Assembly: GCA_009784085.1 (NCBI GenBank)
Contig: WRCJ01000004.1
Span: 1-34,983 of the forward strand
Length of the DNA: 34,983 bases
Source: Oscillospiraceae bacterium
Lineage (GTDB): Bacteria > Bacillota > Clostridia > Oscillospirales > UBA929
Reading direction: 5' to 3'
The stretch's first letter is position 1; each line of letters starts with the position of its first letter. The notes below the pieces were generated by a model. The model was not told where the DNA came from and did not search any database. It saw only the letters and a list, made by a program, of their open reading frames with translations. This document shows, in pieces, positions 2,939-32,322 of the stretch. The position numbers and the translations under genes were made by a program.

Positions 2939-3694
2939 TCACATACCGGTCAAGAATACGGAGATATATGTGCCGATCATCAGCGCGGGCGCAAAGGGGA
3001 TGACGTCTTTGCGCTTTTTCTTCCGGGTGATCAGGAAGACGGCGGAGATGACAAAGGAAACAATGAGCGACACGAACACGGAACCCCATATGCCGTCCAA
3101 GCCCAGCAATAAGCCCATGACGATAAACAGCTTGATGTCCCCGAATCCGATGGAATTCTTGATGAGCAACCCGCAAAGGAACGCCGCGAGAGCCAAGGCG
3201 ACGGCGGCGATCAACTCGGCGCCGGCGCGCAGCCACAGCCCTTCCGGTTCGACGATCAACTCGCACATCAGGATGATGACCCTGTAGGCAAGCCCGGTGA
3301 CGATAAACAAGTTGGGGATCCGGTAGGTCTGGAAATCGACGAAGGCCACCGGCCACAAGAGGCTGAGCAAGCACAGCCGCTTGAGATCGAATAAAAACGA
3401 TTGGGAGGCGTTGAGTTGCGACATCGAAACGGCAATGCCGATACTAAGTAGCGTCATGAGGCTCCCGAAGATGACAAACTTTTTGGTGAGCCAAGGATTG
3501 GAAGGAAGGGTACCCGTAATTTCCGCGTCCACCGCATCCACCGCGTCCTCCGCGTCCTCCGTGTCCCCCGCAATTTCCGCGTTCCCTGTGTTCCCCGGGA
3601 GACGCTTTTTTGCCTGCCTCGCGTAGTCCGTAGCCAATATGAATACACTCAAGCCGTTGAGTACCAACGCGGCCGCGCATAATGAGAAAACCAT
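2939..3694 (-). CDS. Prepilin peptidase, A24 family (TadV/CpaA-like)
   Basis: Polytopic; GFGDIKLFIVMGLLLGL (GxGD motif) and VDFQTYRIPN aspartate motif; within Tad locus. Confidence 0.9.
   Translation of the reverse strand: MVFSLCAAALVLNGLSVFILATDYARQAKKRLPGNTGNAEIAGDTEDAEDAVDAVDAEITGTLPSNPWLTKKFVIFGSLMTLLSIGIAVSMSQLNASQSFLFDLKRLCLLSLLWPVAFVDFQTYRIPNLFIVTGLAYRVIILMCELIVEPEGLWLRAGAELIAAVALALAAFLCGLLIKNSIGFGDIKLFIVMGLLLGLDGIWGSVFVSLIVSFVISAVFLITRKKKRKDVIPFAPALMIGTYISVFLTGM
3521..3592. repeat. In-frame 9-bp tandem repeat in prepilin peptidase loop
   Basis: ttccgcgtc/caccgcatc/caccgcgtc/ctccgcgtc/ctccgtgtc...; encodes GDTEDAEDAVDAVDAE. Confidence 0.85.
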
Positions 3695-3723: not shown

Positions 3724-5103
3724 CTAACCTTCTGTGTTTTCTTTTGTATTTTCTTTTTCGGTGGGCGATCCGTAACCTGTCTTCACTTCCACCGTCAATT
3801 GAATCCCGGCAGCCGCTTTTTCGCTCACAAAGTTGCTGGCGGCCGCCTCAATCATCGCTAGATCCGCATTGTCGGGCACGACCAGGATGATCTTATACGT
3901 CTTATCTATGTCTTTGGCCGTAACGGTTGTGTTGTTCCCGTCGGCGCCTAGCACCGTCACTTGATCCTCCACCTTGCCGGCGGCGTTAAACAAGGCATTG
4001 AATTCCGACCTGAGCTTGCCCGTTACCCCGGATGAGCTGTTGTATGACACCCCGTGCATGCTGGCTATCGCGATATATTGATTCTTGTCCAGGTTGTAGC
4101 CATTGTAGCCGTTTCCGCTGGCGCCGTATGTCGGCAGGGTGAATAGATCCCTCTCCTTATCGTGGATGACCTTCCCCCGCTCCATGGGCGGCAAGTCCCA
4201 AACACTGGATTCGTTTTTTGTCCCCTCTTCTTCACCGCCGCCGCTGCTCTTTTTGTCCCGCAGTAGGGAAACCCCGTTGCCCCACGCGGCGCTCTTGGCG
4301 CATTGCTTGATGGTGAAGGAAAAATCGAAATTCAACAATTTGACGACTTCGATCTCATAGGTGACGACCATTTGGATTTCGTCGCTCACGCCGAAAGCCA
4401 TCAACGAGGATCCGCTGAAATCCAGCCCGTCCAGCCCGTCTTTCACCTTGTAGCGGCGCAGGTATGCCTCGGCGTTGTCGCTCGGCGATTCCTTCAGGTT
4501 CTTTTGCATGAAGGAACGGCAGATCAGGCCCCCCAACATGCCCTTGCCTTCTTCGAGCAATTCCTCGCCGGCCAGCATGGCCATGCCTTTGATAAACGCC
4601 TTGGGGTCGCTCAGTTCCTCTTTGTACCTGTTTATAATGCTCTTGAAACTGTCGCTCCCGGAGTTCACGGCCGTGATCAGCCCGTTGTAGTCGCCGCTAT
4701 CCCAGCTCTTCTGCCCGTCGGACAGGGCGTCCATCATCGTCGATATGCCCGACACCGTGATGTCTGCCGTTTCCCTGGACTGTGCGGTCTTCCCATGTAG
4801 GCTGGCTTGTTTTTCATCCAGGCTGAATTTGTAGTAGAGGTAGACGTATTGCGATATTTCCTTCGTGGAAGACGCGAGGGACGTCCCGATTTTAGCTTGG
4901 ATGAAACAAATGTTTACGATAGACAGTACGATGAATATGGCGAAGATAAAGACGCTCAACGCGATGGTCGCCTCGACGACGACGGCGCCGCCTTCCTTTT
5001 TGGTGCCTCGGAAAAACAACCCTCGCATCCCCGCGCCGCGCATCCCTGCGGTGCGCATTCCCGCAGTGCGCATCCCCGCGCCTCGCGTCCCCGCGCCTCG
5101 CAT
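3724..5103 (-). CDS. TadE/TadG-like pilus assembly protein
   Basis: GAVVVEATIALSVFIFAIFIVLSIVNICFIQAKIGTSLASSTKEISQY, TadE-type N-terminal TM segment; start codon uncertain because of N-terminal MRGAG repeats. Confidence 0.75.
   Translation of the reverse strand: MRGAGTRGAGMRTAGMRTAGMRGAGMRGLFFRGTKKEGGAVVVEATIALSVFIFAIFIVLSIVNICFIQAKIGTSLASSTKEISQYVYLYYKFSLDEKQASLHGKTAQSRETADITVSGISTMMDALSDGQKSWDSGDYNGLITAVNSGSDSFKSIINRYKEELSDPKAFIKGMAMLAGEELLEEGKGMLGGLICRSFMQKNLKESPSDNAEAYLRRYKVKDGLDGLDFSGSSLMAFGVSDEIQMVVTYEIEVVKLLNFDFSFTIKQCAKSAAWGNGVSLLRDKKSSGGGEEEGTKNESSVWDLPPMERGKVIHDKERDLFTLPTYGASGNGYNGYNLDKNQYIAIASMHGVSYNSSSGVTGKLRSEFNALFNAAGKVEDQVTVLGADGNNTTVTAKDIDKTYKIILVVPDNADLAMIEAAASNFVSEKAAAGIQLTVEVKTGYGSPTEKENTKENTEG
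5021..5103. repeat. 15-bp tandem repeat encoding (M/T)R(G/T)AG pentapeptides at TadE/G N-terminus
   Basis: cctcgcatccccgcg / ccgcgcatccctgcg / gtgcgcattcccgca / gtgcgcatccccgcg / cctcgcgtccccgcg / cctcgcat. Confidence 0.9.
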
Positions 5104-12497: not shown

Positions 12498-13568
12498 TTA
12501 TAGGACCTCTGTCAGTTTCTGAAATACGCCCATCCCTGCCAGCTGCGCCACGACATCTTTGGCCGCCGCGTGTTCGTACCGGGGCGCCCCGCCGATGGAT
12601 CGGATATCGTCGCCCAGGGTTTTCCCGGTTTTGTTGCTGAATTTGTTGTAGAACACGCAGATGCGCGGCAGCAAGGCCATGCCGGTTTGCTGCTCGACAA
12701 TCTCCATGGCCCGGTAGACGCGGGCAAACTTGGCGTTTCCCAGCGCCTCCCCGTCGCAGACAAAAACGATGGCGGCCGACTGGCGGAAGATCTCCATGGC
12801 GTACTCGCCCATGGAAAAGTCGATATCGATGACGATGGCGTTGTAGCGGCCCGTCAACCTGATATCGGCCAGCAGTTTCTTTGTATCCTCGATTTTTATC
12901 GCCATCATATCCAGCGCGGTGGGGGGGGACGCATAGAAGAACACGCCGGATTCGTCCTGCCTGACGCCGCTTTCCAGTTTCAGGGACAGGTTGGGTTTCT
13001 TGCTCTTGATCGCGAAGAGGATATCGCCGAAGTCGGACTGCCCCTCGCCGGCAAAGAAGGATTCCGCGCCGCCAAAGGTCTCCAAGTTGAGGTACAGCGT
13101 CCGTTGCCCCATGGCCGCGAGGGTTTTGGCGCATGCGGCGGCGGAAACCGAGCTGCCGCAGCCACCGCTCGCGGACACAAATGTGATGGTCCGCACCGCG
13201 GTGTCGGAGTCCATCCTCAGCCCGACGGCATCGGAGACGCTGTCGGCATAGAGTTCCAGAATGGCTTTGTAGAGGGACTCGGCCCGCTGGTACTTGCAGA
13301 CGGCCGGGCAACCGCGAAAAGCCTCGATATCAGGCGATTCCACCAAGTAGGCAAAACCGCAGTACCGGGGCAGTTTCGATATATCGATGGCAAAGCTGTC
13401 GGCTGCGAGGAACACGTTGATCCTCGCGCCCGCCATGCCGGAGAGTGCGGCGTCCCAATCGGAAAAGGAATAGATCTCCAGCTTTTCCGGGTATTTGCTC
13501 GTAAAGGCATGGGAAATGCGTTGCAAGAAGTTTGCGTCCGCGTCGAGTATGGCCAGTCTGATTCTCAT
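12498..13568 (-). CDS. CpaE/TadZ-like AAA protein (receiver-like N-terminus plus MinD-like P-loop)
   Basis: TFVSASGGCGSSVSAAACAKTLAAMGQRTLYLNLE; preferred start MRIRLAILDAD at 13568 with AGAGGAAG SD rather than track start 13637. Confidence 0.8.
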   Translation of the reverse strand: MRIRLAILDADANFLQRISHAFTSKYPEKLEIYSFSDWDAALSGMAGARINVFLAADSFAIDISKLPRYCGFAYLVESPDIEAFRGCPAVCKYQRAESLYKAILELYADSVSDAVGLRMDSDTAVRTITFVSASGGCGSSVSAAACAKTLAAMGQRTLYLNLETFGGAESFFAGEGQSDFGDILFAIKSKKPNLSLKLESGVRQDESGVFFYASPPTALDMMAIKIEDTKKLLADIRLTGRYNAIVIDIDFSMGEYAMEIFRQSAAIVFVCDGEALGNAKFARVYRAMEIVEQQTGMALLPRICVFYNKFSNKTGKTLGDDIRSIGGAPRYEHAAAKDVVAQLAGMGVFQKLTEVL

Positions 13569-13788
13569 GTTCTTCCTCTCACATTCTTCAAGTGTTGGGG
13601 AACCGTGGGCGGCGCCCATTTCAAAAGGTAACCCCATCTGGCAAACCTTATTTGAAAATACCCATCCGAAAAAGTGCGCAACAATAACGCGGGTTCGCCA
13701 TTATCGAACCAGCTGATGAAAAATCACAACACAAAGATGTCAAAATATTGAGTTGTCGCTTGCATTGTCGCTTTCCTATCGGATTGTG

Positions 13789-14073: not shown

Positions 14074-15420
14074 GTGAATAAGCATATTGTAGACGACGCC
14101 CGCCGATGCCTCCAGTGCAAGAACCCGCTGTGCATACAAGGATGCCCCGTGGAAACGCCCATCAAGGATGCCATCCACTTGCTCCTGAGCGACGGCATCC
14201 AGCAAGCCGGCCGCCTGCTGTTTGACAACAATCCGCTGTCTATCGTCTGTTCCTTGATTTGCCCCCAGGAAAACCAATGCGAAGGCCATTGTATCTTGGG
14301 GAAAAAGGGCGTGCCTGTGCATATCAGCGCCATTGAGCAATATATTTCCGACTACTATCTGAGCCTTTATAAGCCGACGGCCCCGGCGCAGGGGCAGGAG
14401 CAGGGGAAAGCCGCTATCATCGGATCCGGCCCCGCCGGCATCACGATCGCGTTTTATTTGGCGCAAAAAGGGCATCGGGTCACGATCTATGACGGGAATG
14501 AGCGGATTGGCGGCATTTTGCGCTACGGGATCCCGGAGTTCCGCCTACCCAAGGGCATCTTGGACAGGCTGGGGCATGCGTTGGCCGGTTTGGGCGTAAA
14601 AATCAGGCCCAACACCACAATCGGCGCGAGCCTGAATTTGGACGAACTCTTTCGGGATGGTTTCGACGCGGTCTTCATGGGCACCGGCGTGTGGCGCCCC
14701 AAGAAGCTGGGCATCCAAGGCGAGAGCTTAGGGCATGTGCATTTTGCCATTGAGTACCTGCGCAACCCGGATGTCTACAACTTGGGCGGGCGCGTGCTCG
14801 TCGTGGGCGCCGGCAACGTGGCGATGGACGTAGCCCGGACGGCCCTCCGGCATGGTAGTAGCGAGGTCTGCGTCGCCTGCTATGGGGAGGAGTCGGCTGT
14901 CACGGCGCAGCCTGTCGAAATGGAGTACGCAAAGATCGACGGCGTCCGGTTCATCTTCAACAAAGCCGCCCTCGCGTTTACCGAGGAGGGCGCCCTGCTA
15001 GCCGACACCCGCGCTGTAGCGGACGGCACCCGCGCTGTAGCGGATGGCGTTGGCGCTGTAGCGGATGGCACCGGCGCTGTAGCGGATGGCACCGGCGCCA
15101 CTGCGGACGACACCCGCGCCACAGCGGACGGCGTCGGCGCCTTCGAGCTTGTCCCCGGGTCCCAGCAACTCTACCCGGCGGATTCCATCATTGTCGCCAT
15201 CGGCCAAGGCCCCAGGGCCGTCATCGTATCCTCCACAAAGGGCATCGAAGTGGGCGCGTCCGGCTTGGTCGTCGCCGACGATTCCGGCCGCACGACCCGG
15301 CAAGGCGTATTCGCCTCCGGCGACGTGGTGACCGGGGCGAGGACTGTGGTGGAGGCCGTGCGGCGATCGCGCCAGGTAGCCGGCGCGATGGATGCGTACA
15401 TCCGGGCGTTGAGGGGATAG
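14074..15420 (+). CDS. NAD(P)-dependent oxidoreductase, glutamate synthase small-subunit-like (GltD family)
   Basis: CLQCKNPLCIQGCPVETPIKDAI, IGSGPAGITIAFYLAQKGHRVTIYD, VVGAGNVAMDVARTALRHG, FASGDVVTGARTVVEAV; GTG start 6 nt after AAGGAGG. Confidence 0.88.
   Translation: MNKHIVDDARRCLQCKNPLCIQGCPVETPIKDAIHLLLSDGIQQAGRLLFDNNPLSIVCSLICPQENQCEGHCILGKKGVPVHISAIEQYISDYYLSLYKPTAPAQGQEQGKAAIIGSGPAGITIAFYLAQKGHRVTIYDGNERIGGILRYGIPEFRLPKGILDRLGHALAGLGVKIRPNTTIGASLNLDELFRDGFDAVFMGTGVWRPKKLGIQGESLGHVHFAIEYLRNPDVYNLGGRVLVVGAGNVAMDVARTALRHGSSEVCVACYGEESAVTAQPVEMEYAKIDGVRFIFNKAALAFTEEGALLADTRAVADGTRAVADGVGAVADGTGAVADGTGATADDTRATADGVGAFELVPGSQQLYPADSIIVAIGQGPRAVIVSSTKGIEVGASGLVVADDSGRTTRQGVFASGDVVTGARTVVEAVRRSRQVAGAMDAYIRALRG
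15013..15138. repeat. 21-bp in-frame tandem repeat, 6 units, in GltD-like gene
   Basis: GCTGTAGCGGATGGCACCGGC-type units; protein AVADGTR-AVADGVG-AVADGTG-AVADGTG-ATADDTR-ATADGVG. Confidence 0.95.
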
Positions 15421-19213: not shown

Positions 19214-19610
19214 GCGTTGTAGGGGACGCGCCCCCGCGCGTCCCGTCGCCGCACCCTACGGCGTCCCATCCGGCGCGTCCCGCCGACCAACGGCGTCCCA
19301 TCCGGCGCGTCCCGCCGTCCCACGGCGGTGCGTTGTAGGGGACGCGCCCCCGCGCGTCCCGTCGCCGCACCCTACGGCGGTGGTTGCGGCGCGTTGTAGG
19401 GGACGCGCCCCCGCGCGTCCCGCCGACCAACGGCGATCCACCCGGTGCGTCCCGCCGTCCCACGGCGGTGCGTTGTAGGGGACGCGCCCCCGCGCGTCCC
19501 GCCAACCAACGGCGATCCACCCGGTGCGTCCCGCCGTCCAACGGCGATGCGATGTAGGGGACGCGCCCCCGCGCGTCCCGCCAACCAACGGCGATGCGAT
19601 TGGGATGCCG
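19214..19610. repeat. Intergenic array of hairpin-forming direct repeats between aroB and aroA
   Basis: Core GCG(T/A)TGTAGGGGACGCGCCCCCGCGCGTCCCG starts at 19214, 19330, 19391, 19470, 19549, interleaved with CGGYGCGTCCCGCCGWCC-type units. Confidence 0.9.
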
Positions 19611-21573: not shown

Positions 21574-22620
21574 TCAGGTTTCTTGGCGTCGCGTCCTGCG
21601 GGCGGAAACCACCTTCAGGATCACGGCCGCGATAAGCAGTACCGAGGGGAGGTACAAGGATATGAGAAGGTTCCTGTGCACGAAGCCGAGCATGGCGCCC
21701 AAAACCGGCGCGGACCCCACCAGCACATTGACCTGCCCCGCGGCGGCCAATTCGGAGGCGGTCCCGTCGGAGCGCAGCCGAAACCGGTTGATGGGGGCAT
21801 ACATGCCGCCGTCGCCGTCGATGGCCACTACCTTGCCCAGGGAGGGTACGCCGTCATGCGCGACAATAACCAAGGTGTCGTGCAACTTGACGAACTCCGG
21901 ATCTGTCCGGCGCGTGACGATCAACGCGCCCAGGGGCAGGGCGTCGCGCATATTGCCGGGCGTGGGGTGAAAGCTCAGCCCCATGAAAGGCTGGGCGGAA
22001 GTCCAAACCATGCCGCCAAACAGAAAGGCGACGACAAAAAGAGCAAGGGAAAAACAGAGGAAATAGCTCGAAAAACGCCATCGCCGCCACCGCTTCTTGG
22101 GGGGAGGGGAGGGTGGGGGGCTAAGGGGGGGGTCTGTGGGAGAGGGGGGAGTTTCTTCGAAGGGATCCCCCGTGAGATCCATGGCTTCGGTGATCGATCC
22201 ATCCGGTTCTAGCCGATAGCAACCGTTCAACCAGTCGACGATCTCGGGCGGTATCTCCAAGGAGATGTCGGTTGGGGGCAGCGGCGGGTCGGGTTGCCCG
22301 GAAAGCGGCGCGTCAGGGGGGCCAGGCTCCGGCGCAGATCCCGGCATGGGATTCGGCGCAGGTCCCGGCTCGGACCCCGATGTAGGTTCGGGCACAGGCC
22401 CTGGCGGAGAACTGGGCACAAGATCCGGCGCAGGCCCGGGCATGGGAGTCGGCACAAGTTCCGGCACAAGTTCCGGCGCAAGCTCCGGATCCGTCCCCCG
22501 CATTGGCTCCGGCGCTGGCCCATAGATCCCTTCATCATACTCGTCGGCATCCCACAATTGCGACGCTTGCCTTTCCAGCTCGGCGGCGTCAGGCGCCCTT
22601 CCCTCAGATGTTCTTGCCAT
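21574..22620 (-). CDS. S26/SipW-like signal-peptidase-fold membrane protein, likely catalytically degenerate, with Pro-rich N-terminal extension
   Basis: TM-PTPGNMRDALPLGALIVTRRTDPEFVKLHDTLVIVAHDGVPSLGKVVAIDGDGG...NVLVGSAPVLGAMLGFV-TM aligns by eye with the SipW layout. Confidence 0.55.
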   Translation of the reverse strand: MARTSEGRAPDAAELERQASQLWDADEYDEGIYGPAPEPMRGTDPELAPELVPELVPTPMPGPAPDLVPSSPPGPVPEPTSGSEPGPAPNPMPGSAPEPGPPDAPLSGQPDPPLPPTDISLEIPPEIVDWLNGCYRLEPDGSITEAMDLTGDPFEETPPSPTDPPLSPPPSPPPKKRWRRWRFSSYFLCFSLALFVVAFLFGGMVWTSAQPFMGLSFHPTPGNMRDALPLGALIVTRRTDPEFVKLHDTLVIVAHDGVPSLGKVVAIDGDGGMYAPINRFRLRSDGTASELAAAGQVNVLVGSAPVLGAMLGFVHRNLLISLYLPSVLLIAAVILKVVSARRTRRQET

Positions 22621-23106: not shown

Positions 23107-25848
23107 TTATCTCCCTACAGTTTTTTCCAGGATGCCGTTCACCAGCGCCAAGGCGCCTTCCGCTTTGGAAATGTCCTTTCCGCCACCCATGGCGCTGTCC
23201 GGGCGGCCCCCGCCCGACCCGCCCGCGGCCTTGGAGACCTGCCGGACAATGTCCCCGGCGCGGATCCCCCGCATGACAGCGTTTTTGCCACAGACTGCCA
23301 GGAAGGTGAGGTTGTTCTGCTGTGTCCCCGCCAGCACGGCCACCACATCCGGGTCTTTCTCCCGCAGGAAGTCGCCGGCCTGGCGCAGATCGCCGGGCGC
23401 CGTTTCCGGCATCACAACCGTGATGAGTTTGCAGCCGGCCACATCCCGTGCTTCGGCACATAGCCTGTCCATCTCGGCCTTGAGGTTGGCGGCACGTAGC
23501 CTATCCATCTCGCGCCGGGCATCCTTGAGTTCGGACAACACTTGCGCGGCGCGGCGGAGAAGGTCATCGGGCTTGGCCTTGTAGCACTGCGCCAAATCAG
23601 AAAGCGTCCGGCCATCGGCCCGCGCGTCCTCGAAGGCCCGCAGGCCCACATGCGCCTCGATGCGGCGCACGCCGGCGGCCACCGACGACTCGCCGCGCAA
23701 CACAAAGGATCCGATTCCGGAGGTGTTGGGCAGGTGGGTGCCGCCGCAAAGCTCAGTGGACAGGTCGCCCATCTTGACCACGCGAACGAGATCGCCATAC
23801 TTTTCGCCGAACAGGGCCGTGGCGCCCAACGCCTTGGCCTCGTCCATGGCCATCTCCGAGATATCCACGGCGGTCATGGTCAGGGCCATGGTATTGACCG
23901 AATGCTCGATCATCGCCAGCTGTTCTTGGGTGCAGGCGGAATGGTGGGTGAAGTCAAAACGCAGGCGATCCGGCTCGACCAAGGATCCGGCTTGCTGCAC
24001 GTGGTTGCCTAGAGCTTGACGCAACGCGCTGTGGAGCAAATGGGTCGCCGAATGGGCCCGGGCAATGGCCGCCCGCCGCCCGGCGTCCACCTCGGCCTTC
24101 ACGGTGTCGCCCCGGGACAGCTCGCCGGCTTCAACGAAGCCGATATGCAGGAACTTTCCGTCCTTCATGCGCCTCATGTCATCCACGCGCACCAGGGCGC
24201 CCTCCGAGATCAAGCGGCCGGCGTCGGAGATTTGGCCGCCGCTCTCGGCCCAGAAGGGCGTTTGATCCAGCACGATATTGACTGGATCCCCTTCCGAAAC
24301 ACTGTCGCGCAACTGATCCCCCGAGACAAGGGCCAGGACGCGGCCTTCGCTTGCCAGTTTGTCATAGCCGAGGAACACGGTGGCAAGATCGCGATTAAGG
24401 CCGAGATCCATGCCGGCCCAGCCTAGATCCCCCTGGGACTTGCGCGCCTGGCGGGCGCGTTCCCGTTGCTGTTGCATCAGATCGTCAAAAGCCTGCCGGT
24501 CGAGGGTCATGCCCTCCTCCGCCAGTATCTCCTGCGTCAGATCGACTGGGAAACCAAAGGTGTCGTAGAGCCGGAAGGCATCGGCGCCCGGTAGTGTCGT
24601 ACCCGGCAGCGTCGTGCCCGGCAGGTCGGCGTCTGGTTGAGCCGCGCCCGGCAACGTCGTGCCCGGGAGGTCTGTGCCCGAGGCGGCTCGCGCAGCCGCG
24701 ATGGATTCACGCAACAACAGGAGGCCCGCGTCGAGGGTTTTCTCAAAGCGTTCTTCCTCCATGCGGATGACCTGTTCGATATGCGCGGCCCGGGCGCGAA
24801 GTTCCGGATAGGCCGCTTCGCTGTTTTGGATGACCGTGCGGCACACCTGGAACAGGAAGGGTTTTTCCACGCCCAAAAGCCGCCCGTGCCGCGCCGCCCG
24901 GCGCAACAGCCGCCGCAGCACGTAGCCGCGCCCCTCGTTGGAGGGCAGGATGCCGTCGCAGACCATCATCGTGGTCGATCGGATGTGGTCGGTGACAATG
25001 CGCAACGAAATGTCGCTCTTCTCGTCCCGGTGGTAAGCCACGCCGGTGATCGCCGAGATCTCTTCTCGGATGCTCCGGAAGGTGTCCACCTCAAAGATGC
25101 TGTCCACGCCCTGCATCAGGCAAGCCAGCCGCTCCAGGCCCAAGCCCGTGTCGATGTTTTTCTGCTTGAGGGGCGTGTACTGCCCCTGCCCGTCGCCATG
25201 GAACTGGGTAAAGACCAGGTTCCAAAACTCCACATAGCGATCGCAGTCGCAACCCACCTTGCAATCGGCGGCGCCGCAACTGTATCCCTCTCCGCGGTCG
25301 AAATAGATTTCGGAACACGGGCCGCACGGTCCTATGCCAATCTCCCAGAAATTGTCGGCCTTCCCCAGCCTGGTCATGTGGGCGGCATCGACGCCGACCT
25401 CATTCGTCCAGATGTCCCACGCCTCGTCGTCGTCCAGGTACACCGACACATAGAGTTTCTCCCGGGGCATGCCCAACGTCTCGGTGCAAAACTCCCAAGC
25501 CCAGCGCGCCGCCTCCCGCTTGAAGTAGTCGCCAAAGGAAAAGCTGCCCAGCATTTCGAAGAAGGTGGCGTGGCGCGAGGTCTGGCCCACCCGCTCGATA
25601 TCGGGCGTGCGGATGCATTTTTGGCAGGTCGTCGCCCGCTTGCTGGGCGGCGTGAGTTCCCCTGAAAAATACGGCTTGAGGGGCGCCATGCCCGAGTTGA
25701 TGAGCAACAGGGAGGCGTCCCCCTGCGGGATGAGGGGGAAACTGGGCAGGCGCAAGTGTGCCTTGCCCTCGAAGAACGATAGGAATTCCTCCCGGATAGC
25801 GTTGAGTCCCATAGATCGCATAGGGGATACCCTCCTGTGTGAATTCAA
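23107..25848 (-). CDS. alaS: Alanyl-tRNA synthetase (start may be 25818, MRSMGLNAIREEF)
   Basis: LRLPSFPLIPQGDASLLLINSGMAPLKPYF, RLYDTFGFPVDLT, HSATHLLHSALR, CGGTHLPNTSGIGSF. Confidence 0.97.
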   Translation of the reverse strand: MNSHRRVSPMRSMGLNAIREEFLSFFEGKAHLRLPSFPLIPQGDASLLLINSGMAPLKPYFSGELTPPSKRATTCQKCIRTPDIERVGQTSRHATFFEMLGSFSFGDYFKREAARWAWEFCTETLGMPREKLYVSVYLDDDEAWDIWTNEVGVDAAHMTRLGKADNFWEIGIGPCGPCSEIYFDRGEGYSCGAADCKVGCDCDRYVEFWNLVFTQFHGDGQGQYTPLKQKNIDTGLGLERLACLMQGVDSIFEVDTFRSIREEISAITGVAYHRDEKSDISLRIVTDHIRSTTMMVCDGILPSNEGRGYVLRRLLRRAARHGRLLGVEKPFLFQVCRTVIQNSEAAYPELRARAAHIEQVIRMEEERFEKTLDAGLLLLRESIAAARAASGTDLPGTTLPGAAQPDADLPGTTLPGTTLPGADAFRLYDTFGFPVDLTQEILAEEGMTLDRQAFDDLMQQQRERARQARKSQGDLGWAGMDLGLNRDLATVFLGYDKLASEGRVLALVSGDQLRDSVSEGDPVNIVLDQTPFWAESGGQISDAGRLISEGALVRVDDMRRMKDGKFLHIGFVEAGELSRGDTVKAEVDAGRRAAIARAHSATHLLHSALRQALGNHVQQAGSLVEPDRLRFDFTHHSACTQEQLAMIEHSVNTMALTMTAVDISEMAMDEAKALGATALFGEKYGDLVRVVKMGDLSTELCGGTHLPNTSGIGSFVLRGESSVAAGVRRIEAHVGLRAFEDARADGRTLSDLAQCYKAKPDDLLRRAAQVLSELKDARREMDRLRAANLKAEMDRLCAEARDVAGCKLITVVMPETAPGDLRQAGDFLREKDPDVVAVLAGTQQNNLTFLAVCGKNAVMRGIRAGDIVRQVSKAAGGSGGGRPDSAMGGGKDISKAEGALALVNGILEKTVGR
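24584..24688. repeat. 15-bp in-frame tandem repeat, 7 units, in alaS
   Basis: gcgcccggtagtgtc/gtacccggcagcgtc/gtgcccggcaggtcg/gcgtctggttgagcc/gcgcccggcaacgtc/gtgcccgggaggtct/gtgcccgaggcggct; encodes LPGTT-like pentapeptides. Confidence 0.95.
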
Positions 25849-30599: not shown

Positions 30600-30627
30600 T
30601 TTACATTTCGCTGATATGTGATATAAT
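30600..30627 (+). promoter_or_regulatory. Sigma-70-type promoter of the AbiE operon
   Basis: TTTACA - 16 nt - TATAAT; AAGGAGG SD before ATG 30660. Confidence 0.7.
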
Positions 30628-30659: not shown

Positions 30660-31247
30660 ATGGATAACAGGCTCCAAGATGCCCTGCGGGAAAACGGCGG
30701 GTTTATTACCGTCGCTCAGGGCAAAAAAGCCGGTTTGTCGCACACAAGTATTTTGCGGGCGACAAAAGCCGGCCATATCGAGCGTGTCGCTCACGGCGTC
30801 TATGAAGCCGCCGATAAGTTTGACGATGTTTTATACGCAAGCCAACTACGTCGGCCGAAGATGATTTACTCTCACGGTACGGCGTTGTATTTGCATGACC
30901 TGTCCGACCGCGACCCGCTTAACCTTTCTGTCACCGTCCCGACTGGGTATAACACAAAGCAGCTTGTTTCGGAGGGGTTTACCGTTTTTTCAGTAAAAAA
31001 AGATTTGTATAGCAACGGTGCAACCAAAATCAAAACCAAGTATGATAACGAAGTCACAGCATATAACCTGGAGCGTACAATCTGCGATTGTGTCCGTAGC
31101 CGGAGCCGTATGGACGCGGAGATCGTGACCGAAGCCGTCAAGCGGTACGCACGGAGCAAAGACCGGGACGTTCACACGTTGATGGAAACGGCGGCTATGT
31201 TCGGCGTACAAAAAATCATGCGTACTTATATGGAGGTGTTACTGTGA
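30660..31247 (+). CDS. Type IV TA system AbiEi-family antitoxin
   Basis: N-terminal wHTH (GGFITVAQGKKAGLSHTSILRATKAGHIERVAHGVYEA) and AbiEi-type domain (YSHGTALYLHDLSDRDPLNLSVTVPTGYN...YNLERTICDCVR). Confidence 0.9.
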   Translation: MDNRLQDALRENGGFITVAQGKKAGLSHTSILRATKAGHIERVAHGVYEAADKFDDVLYASQLRRPKMIYSHGTALYLHDLSDRDPLNLSVTVPTGYNTKQLVSEGFTVFSVKKDLYSNGATKIKTKYDNEVTAYNLERTICDCVRSRSRMDAEIVTEAVKRYARSKDRDVHTLMETAAMFGVQKIMRTYMEVLL

Positions 31248-32091
31248 AAACGTCAATGCAGTTAAAGGCGAAAGCGCGGAACCTTTCCACGAAAACAAAC
31301 ACGCCGCCGCATATCATTCAGCGCAATTATTTCCTTGAACGCTTCCTCGAAAGGGTATCATTATCGGGGCACAGGGACAGTATCGTACTAAAAGGCGGCG
31401 CACTCATCACGTCCCTGCTCGGCATAGAGGCGCGGGCGACGGTGGATTTGGACGCTACCGTGCGGGCGCGGACGCTGACCGCAGAGGAAATAGCGGAAAT
31501 CGTCGGCGAAGTCCTGCGAACCGGAATAGACGACAATGTGGTTTTCACGCTGACTGAAATGGAAGAAACGAGGGTAGAGGCAGAATACCCCGGTTTCCGC
31601 GTTACCCTGAACGTGACGCTGGACAAGCTACGTGATACTGTAAAATTGGACTTCACAGCCGGCGACGTGATCACCCCGAAACCGGTCGAGTACGGGTACA
31701 GGCTGATGTTCGAGGAGAGGGAAATCCGCGTCCTCGCGTATAACCTTGAAACTGTCCTCGCCGAAAAGTTTACCGCCGCGCTGTCGCTTGACGTTTCCAA
31801 CACCCGGATGAAAGATTTCTACGATATATATATATGCTCCTGACCGAACAGCGGGACGCAATCAGCCCGGGGATATTCGCGGACGCTGTGACCAATACCG
31901 CGAACCAACGGAGTATGAGCCGGCTTCTCCCGCAAGCGGGGCATATCCTTGACACGGTGGAGGGAAGCTCCGCGACGGCTGAATTGTGGAGGCGATACCA
32001 AACGGCGTATAAGTATGCCGCCGGCGTTGAGTTTGCGGACGTTATCTCGTCATTGCGGTTATTAACAGAATGGTACAATGATAATAAATAG
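31244..32091 (+). pseudogene. AbiEii-family nucleotidyltransferase toxin, frameshifted (31244-31843 plus 31834-32091)
   Basis: LKGGALITSLLGIEARATVDLDATVRA (GGT-type NTase motif) ...AYNLETVLAEKFTAALSLDVSNTRMKDFYDIY, then frame break at (AT)6 (31824-31835); the 85-aa ORF LLTEQRDAISPGIF... continues the protein. Confidence 0.85.
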
Positions 32092-32165: not shown

Positions 32166-32273
32166 ATGGGCGTTATGGGCGTTATGGGCGTTATGGGTAT
32201 TTTGGATGTTGTTGAGCTGGTCAGACAGGTGCGCCAGCAGATGTGGGAGGAATGCAATGACGGTAATGCATAA
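32166..32273 (+). CDS. Putative 35-aa small ORF (MGVMGVMGVMGILDVVELVRQVRQQMWEECNDGNA)
   Basis: GGAGG at 32154-32158, 7 nt before ATG; downstream of promoter; 9-bp ATGGGCGTT repeat at its 5' end. Confidence 0.4.
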   Translation: MGVMGVMGVMGILDVVELVRQVRQQMWEECNDGNA

Positions 32274-32322
32274 CAGCAGCAAGATGTGGGAGGAACGCAA
32301 TGACGGTAATGCTTGACAGCAA
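32235..32322. repeat. 43-bp tandem duplication covering the M50 RBS and start codon
   Basis: cagcagatgtgggaggaatgcaatgacggtaatgcataacagcag / cagcaagatgtgggaggaacgcaatgacggtaatgcttgacagcaa. Confidence 0.9.

Follow-up and report, generated by a model that had tools for sequence, protein, structure and literature searches.

The founding AbiE type IV toxin-antitoxin system, described in 2014, is a two-gene operon with a wHTH-type antitoxin gene first and a DUF1814 NTase toxin gene carrying motifs I-IV second, and mutations in each of these motifs abolished toxicity (PMC3985639). MenT toxins are bi-lobed (PMC10435456), and a paper on S. thermophilus places the AbiEii active site in a crevice between the lobes (PMC11514479). 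The same paper describes the AbiEii of S. thermophilus 90730, a natural truncation in which the catalytic residues are present and the C-terminal part is missing; the truncation is identical in five strains, no repeat is named as its cause in the passages describing it, and the protein was judged likely to be impaired, with a limited phage effect. Translational phase variation at simple sequence repeats (SSRs), as at the dinucleotide tracts of Campylobacter, involves an in-ORF repeat whose unit is not a multiple of three and an out-of-frame allele (PMC6321876). The locus reported here resembles the founding operon in its gene order and motifs, the S. thermophilus toxin in having the catalytic residues but no C-terminal part, and the SSR genes in its in-ORF repeat and out-of-frame allele. 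It lies in a window of 34,983 nt (the whole stretch of DNA analysed) at the beginning of contig 4. The draft assembly to which this contig belongs measures 1.61 Mb in 146 contigs and is 87% complete. A canonical abiEi-abiEii operon, in which the antitoxin is intact and the toxin is split, occupies 30660-32091, with the following features:

30600..30627, + strand: promoter-like site TTTACA-16-TATAAT, 5' of abiEi (11 of 12 consensus positions matched in a scan, with TG ahead of the -10)
30660..31247, + strand: abiEi antitoxin, 195 aa, intact (AbiEi_4 PF13338, E 6e-10; PADLOC AbiEi PDLC02225, E 7e-66, positions 8-194 of 198)
31244..31843, + strand: abiEii front piece, 199 aa, GTG start, NTase motifs I-IV (PF08843, E 4e-34; PDLC02288, positions 7-203 of 294)
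31824..31835, + strand: (AT)6 tract, the frameshift site, in the codons of motif IV (KDFYDIY); in-frame (AT)5 in the intact relatives L121, L122, L128 and L141
31834..32091, + strand: abiEii back piece of 85 aa, encoding the helical C-lobe in a different frame (PDLC02288, positions 203-273 of 294, E 2e-8; collinear with intact homologues by tblastn)

The site at 30600-30627 is a candidate promoter, proposed from its match to the consensus alone. An AbiEi-type gene stands directly 5' of the toxin, as expected of an AbiE system (PF13338 together with the full-length PADLOC AbiEi match), and the toxin is a DUF1814/AbiEii NTase with motifs I-IV, the invariant motif residues of which all fall in the front piece. 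A single full-length toxin ORF with a helical C-lobe is lacking, the frame being broken at 31824-31835, and the operon is a disrupted AbiE member. The GTG start of abiEii overlaps the abiEi stop as a 4-bp GTGA, and annotated abiEi-abiEii pairs such as that of Vescimonas fastidiosa likewise overlap by 4 bp. Three AbiE-type toxin genes were found in the assembly, and the two others have open frames.

The two toxin pieces are consecutive parts of one gene. In the front frame KDFYDIY runs into (AT)6 and then into ICS and a stop (GAT ATA TAT ATA TGC TCC TGA, stop at 31841-31843), and the PF08843 (AbiEii) match of this piece covers profile positions 1-167 of 238. The front piece and the 85-aa ORF follow one another along the single 294-position profile PDLC02288, and in intact homologues such as L087 and L085 both pieces match in order within one frame. 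A preliminary description had held that a 2-bp change in an (AT)6 tract splits the toxin behind an intact antitoxin, and this is borne out: the tract position is exact, the AbiEi profile is matched over 8-194 of 198, and in four intact relatives an (AT)5 is in frame. Its proposal that removal of one AT unit would join the 85-aa ORF to the front piece also agrees with the single profile and the collinear alignment; its length of about 283 aa has to be corrected, for reading the gene with (AT)5 gives a joined protein of 281 aa (196 + 85), and the close intact relatives measure 281-286 aa.

Neither abiEii half contains a further stop or frame break. The family-conserved residues K50, G51, R64, D68, D70, K175, R188, D191, Y193 and D194 are all in the front piece, and R222 and W248, which are invariant in the family, are both kept in the back piece. 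Over the whole back piece 6 of the 13 family-conserved positions are retained; of the eight intact homologues checked, seven retain 6-8 of them and the eighth retains 10. Codon-position GC is normal and similar in the two pieces. The tail of a long-dead gene would be expected to be in a worse state, and the lesion looks recent because invariant residues are kept in both halves.

The effect of the lesion on the protein was considered with an AlphaFold2 model of an intact 286-aa relative, L004 (pLDDT 92). In this model the truncation point, residue 196, lies inside the helix 189-205, and the part lost beyond it comprises the remaining helices, to residue 276. The 199-aa product is probably inactive because it would end within the motif-IV helix and lose the helical C-lobe; of the two earlier suggestions of an inactivated or a phase-variable toxin, inactivation is therefore the likely one. 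It is highly improbable that the split gene still works, with the C-lobe supplied by a frameshift or by slippage of the transcript on (AU)6, or by re-initiation at ATG 31834. Both parts of the gene are conserved and ATG 31834 overlaps the region of the TGA at 31841-31843, but neither a Shine-Dalgarno-like sequence 5' of 31834 nor an X XXY YYZ slippery heptamer is present, and a conserved recoding signal is lacking because 113 of the 119 homologue sites are open with (AT)4 or shorter. Recoding of the TGA itself was rejected, since readthrough meets further stops downstream.

The tract itself is rare. Dinucleotide shuffles of the window gave (AT)6 in 0 of 100, and in the whole 1.61-Mb assembly (AT) of at least five units occurs in two places only, in abiEii and on contig 49; the abiEii tract is the only coding one because the other lies between ftsL-like and rsmH-like genes. 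Read from its letters, the (AT)6 is the Asp-Ile-Tyr-Met codons GAT ATA TAT ATG plus one unit, with no inserted element. The D-I-Y residues would be written GAT ATA TAT in about 2% of cases by the codon usage of the host genes and in 7% by that of the abiE and M50 genes. Among the 119 homologue sites (AT)5 was found in 4, (AT)4 in 19 and shorter tracts in the rest; a phase-variable gene should keep its tract across homologues, and here the tract is not conserved because most relatives have ATT or ATC at the D-I-Y site. The homologue set was gathered in part by a search pattern containing MKDFYDIY, so that the conservation of KDFYDIY within it is partly a matter of selection. The four (AT)5 sites, at the same codons as the (AT)6, belong to L121, L122, L128 and L141, all of which are intact, which led us to reject the view that homologues with (AT)5 are as a rule broken. 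When 395 and 391 genomes were scanned for a pattern combining DFYD with (AT)5, one further AbiEii match was obtained, L141; another match, L140, is not AbiEii, the remaining one is the window itself, and the viral-contig match L139 is likewise not AbiEii.

Other repeats are present in the window. G8 runs lie at 12921-12928, within a long open ORF on the minus strand (12498-13637) of a Tad-pilus-like cluster, and at 22125-22132, within another long open minus-strand ORF (21574-22620); both exceed the seven-G/C phase-variation cut-off, but in DNA this rich in GC chance alone should produce a few runs of the kind. Tandem repeats with periods of 12, 15 and 21 lie inside open reading frames at 5024-5103, 15006-15132, 22450-22488 and 24587-24628, and many more short tandem arrays are spread across the window (36 entries). 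An intergenic array of about 79-bp units (19258-19595, 2.7 copies, 96% matches) separates aroA-like and aroB-like genes, and a 43-bp tandem duplication (32235-32321, 91%) overlaps the beginning of the M50 peptidase gene. Just 5' of this duplication stand 3.6 copies of ATGGGCGTT (32166-32197). A GCAG-rich tandem array at the contig start (1-122) is probably an assembly stop point.

The abiE operon and the M50 peptidase gene that follows it have a GC content of 48-55%, somewhat below that of the DNA on their left (53-67%) and right (55-59%), and the GC3 of this stretch is 0.61 versus 0.76. No relatives of the toxin were found in 17 related genomes (5 others of the genus and 12 further ones of the family). 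Both the lower GC and GC3 and the absence from these 17 relatives are consistent with horizontal acquisition. No DNA match to the locus was found in phages or in plasmids, viral contigs gave toxin relatives at 30-35% identity only, and this search of the genus and family genomes, phages, plasmids and viral contigs revealed no second tract allele. In an empty-site comparison at wecG, the genus relatives that have this gene proved not to be syntenic on its 5' side, so that no insertion boundary can be drawn.

The explanation that we favour, and hold to be reasonably likely, is a recent inactivation of a horizontally acquired AbiEii by a 2-bp slippage gain in its own motif-IV AT tract. A type IV (AbiE) toxin-antitoxin operon would have been acquired horizontally, and slippage, the presumed mechanism, would have added 2 bp to the AT tract that encodes Asp-Ile-Tyr-Met in motif IV. 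The C-lobe would then be out of frame and toxicity presumably abolished, if, as we suppose, the assembled (AT)6 allele is real and the sampled strain is fixed for it. The intact AbiEi would, as in the AbiE systems that have been studied, go on repressing its own operon, which would now be harmless. Slippage could in principle restore the frame, though probably rarely. On this explanation the lesion is real and ordinary, in a member of a known family, and would add a further example of a toxin lost first with its antitoxin kept.

That the true gene is intact, and that the (AT)6 is an assembly or sequencing artefact or a consensus from a strain mixture, appears rather unlikely. The draft state of the assembly (146 contigs, 87% complete), an allele known from assembled sequence alone, a lesion within a simple repeat and the constrained look of both halves would suit such an error. 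A 12-bp tract, on the other hand, is far below ordinary read length, and the local indel error rate looks low because the reading frames of the other main genes in the 35-kb window are open.

Five homologues (L021, L024, L033, L079 and L090) have AbiEii genes broken by one or a few lesions each. Single in-frame stops break the gene in two of them, a TAG seven codons past motif IV in L090 and a TAA before motif IV at L024:3502-3504. L021, from an uncultured Bacilli MAG (BRZ_HM__bin47), independently lost its frame through a 2-bp change in the same D-I-Y codons (GAT ATAT ATG, 3484-3530), past which the remainder of its protein is encoded in the next frame; it is a homologue of 38% identity, and its own relatives at 82-86% identity are in frame. 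Because L021 was independently frameshifted at these codons, the tract formed by the conserved KDFYDIY codons may be a mutation hotspot. The preliminary description had looked to disabling lesions in homologues as a sign of simple decay; these five have one or a few such lesions each, and the four (AT)5 relatives are intact. The broken genes of L024, L033, L079 and L090 constitute an ordinary background that speaks against a switch, whereas the same-codon frameshift of L021 would suit switching better than chance decay and hints against the explanation we favour.

A phase-variable toxin, in which AT slippage would turn AbiEii on ((AT)5, (AT)8) or off ((AT)6, (AT)7) as a bet-hedging form of abortive infection, appears unlikely. 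In its favour, the tract is the sole coding one of its kind in the assembly, both halves are undamaged, L021 was hit at the same codons while its near relatives stay in frame, and six units reach the dinucleotide cut-off of six or more used by PhasomeIt; the in-frame (AT)5 state, however, falls below this cut-off, and that paper itself cautions that a tract at one of its cut-offs may have too low a mutation rate for switching (PMC6321876). Frame-broken genes at the site amount to 2 of the 6 with an in-frame (AT)5 versus none of the other 110 or so genes (Fisher p 0.002), a post hoc comparison of tiny numbers that serves only to generate hypotheses and assumes (AT)5 in the ancestor of L021, which may instead have had ATT TAT with TT lost. 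Further points against switching are that the four (AT)5 homologues are simply intact, that (AT)6 is the only allele known, and that the genome has mutS (mutS1) and mutL, both with open frames, on which ground loss of mismatch repair was rejected as the cause. There is no sign of frequent or regulated switching, and the earlier suggestion of phase variation is no more than a possibility, given one known allele, a tract at the minimal cut-off and mismatch repair genes present. It is improbable that the KDFYDIY(M/I) codons constitute a built-in microsatellite acting as a recurrent slippage switch, which would make AbiE defence reversible in some lineages, with the (AT)6 and the (AT)4 of L021 as independent off-alleles. 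If the tract truly switches, the operon would be a type IV toxin-antitoxin system under phase variation; in the accessible portions of the open-access literature no paper was found that joins AbiEii with phase variation or frameshifts, and three papers (PMC8895040, PMC5786670 and PMC13335696) name both AbiEii and phase variation, never together in those portions.

Compared with the founding AbiE system (PMC3985639), the abiEii frame here is interrupted past motif IV and the C-lobe is out of frame. The truncated AbiEii of S. thermophilus 90730 differs in that the gene described here has a 2-bp change in an AT tract and its C-lobe is still encoded downstream. Unlike the SSR genes of Campylobacter (PMC6321876), abiEii has a tract of minimal length that is not conserved, one allele, and a genome in which mismatch repair genes are present. 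In fold, the model of the intact relative L004 is like the NTase toxin MenT3/TglT (Rv1045; PDB 6j7o and 8xhr) over its whole length (TM 0.61-0.65), at about 14% identity, and the copy in the window is without an in-frame C-lobe. The closest solved structure by sequence is AbiGII (PDB 9hlo chain B), with E 5e-37 over front-piece residues 7-199, but the chain there is an unbroken one of 287 aa.
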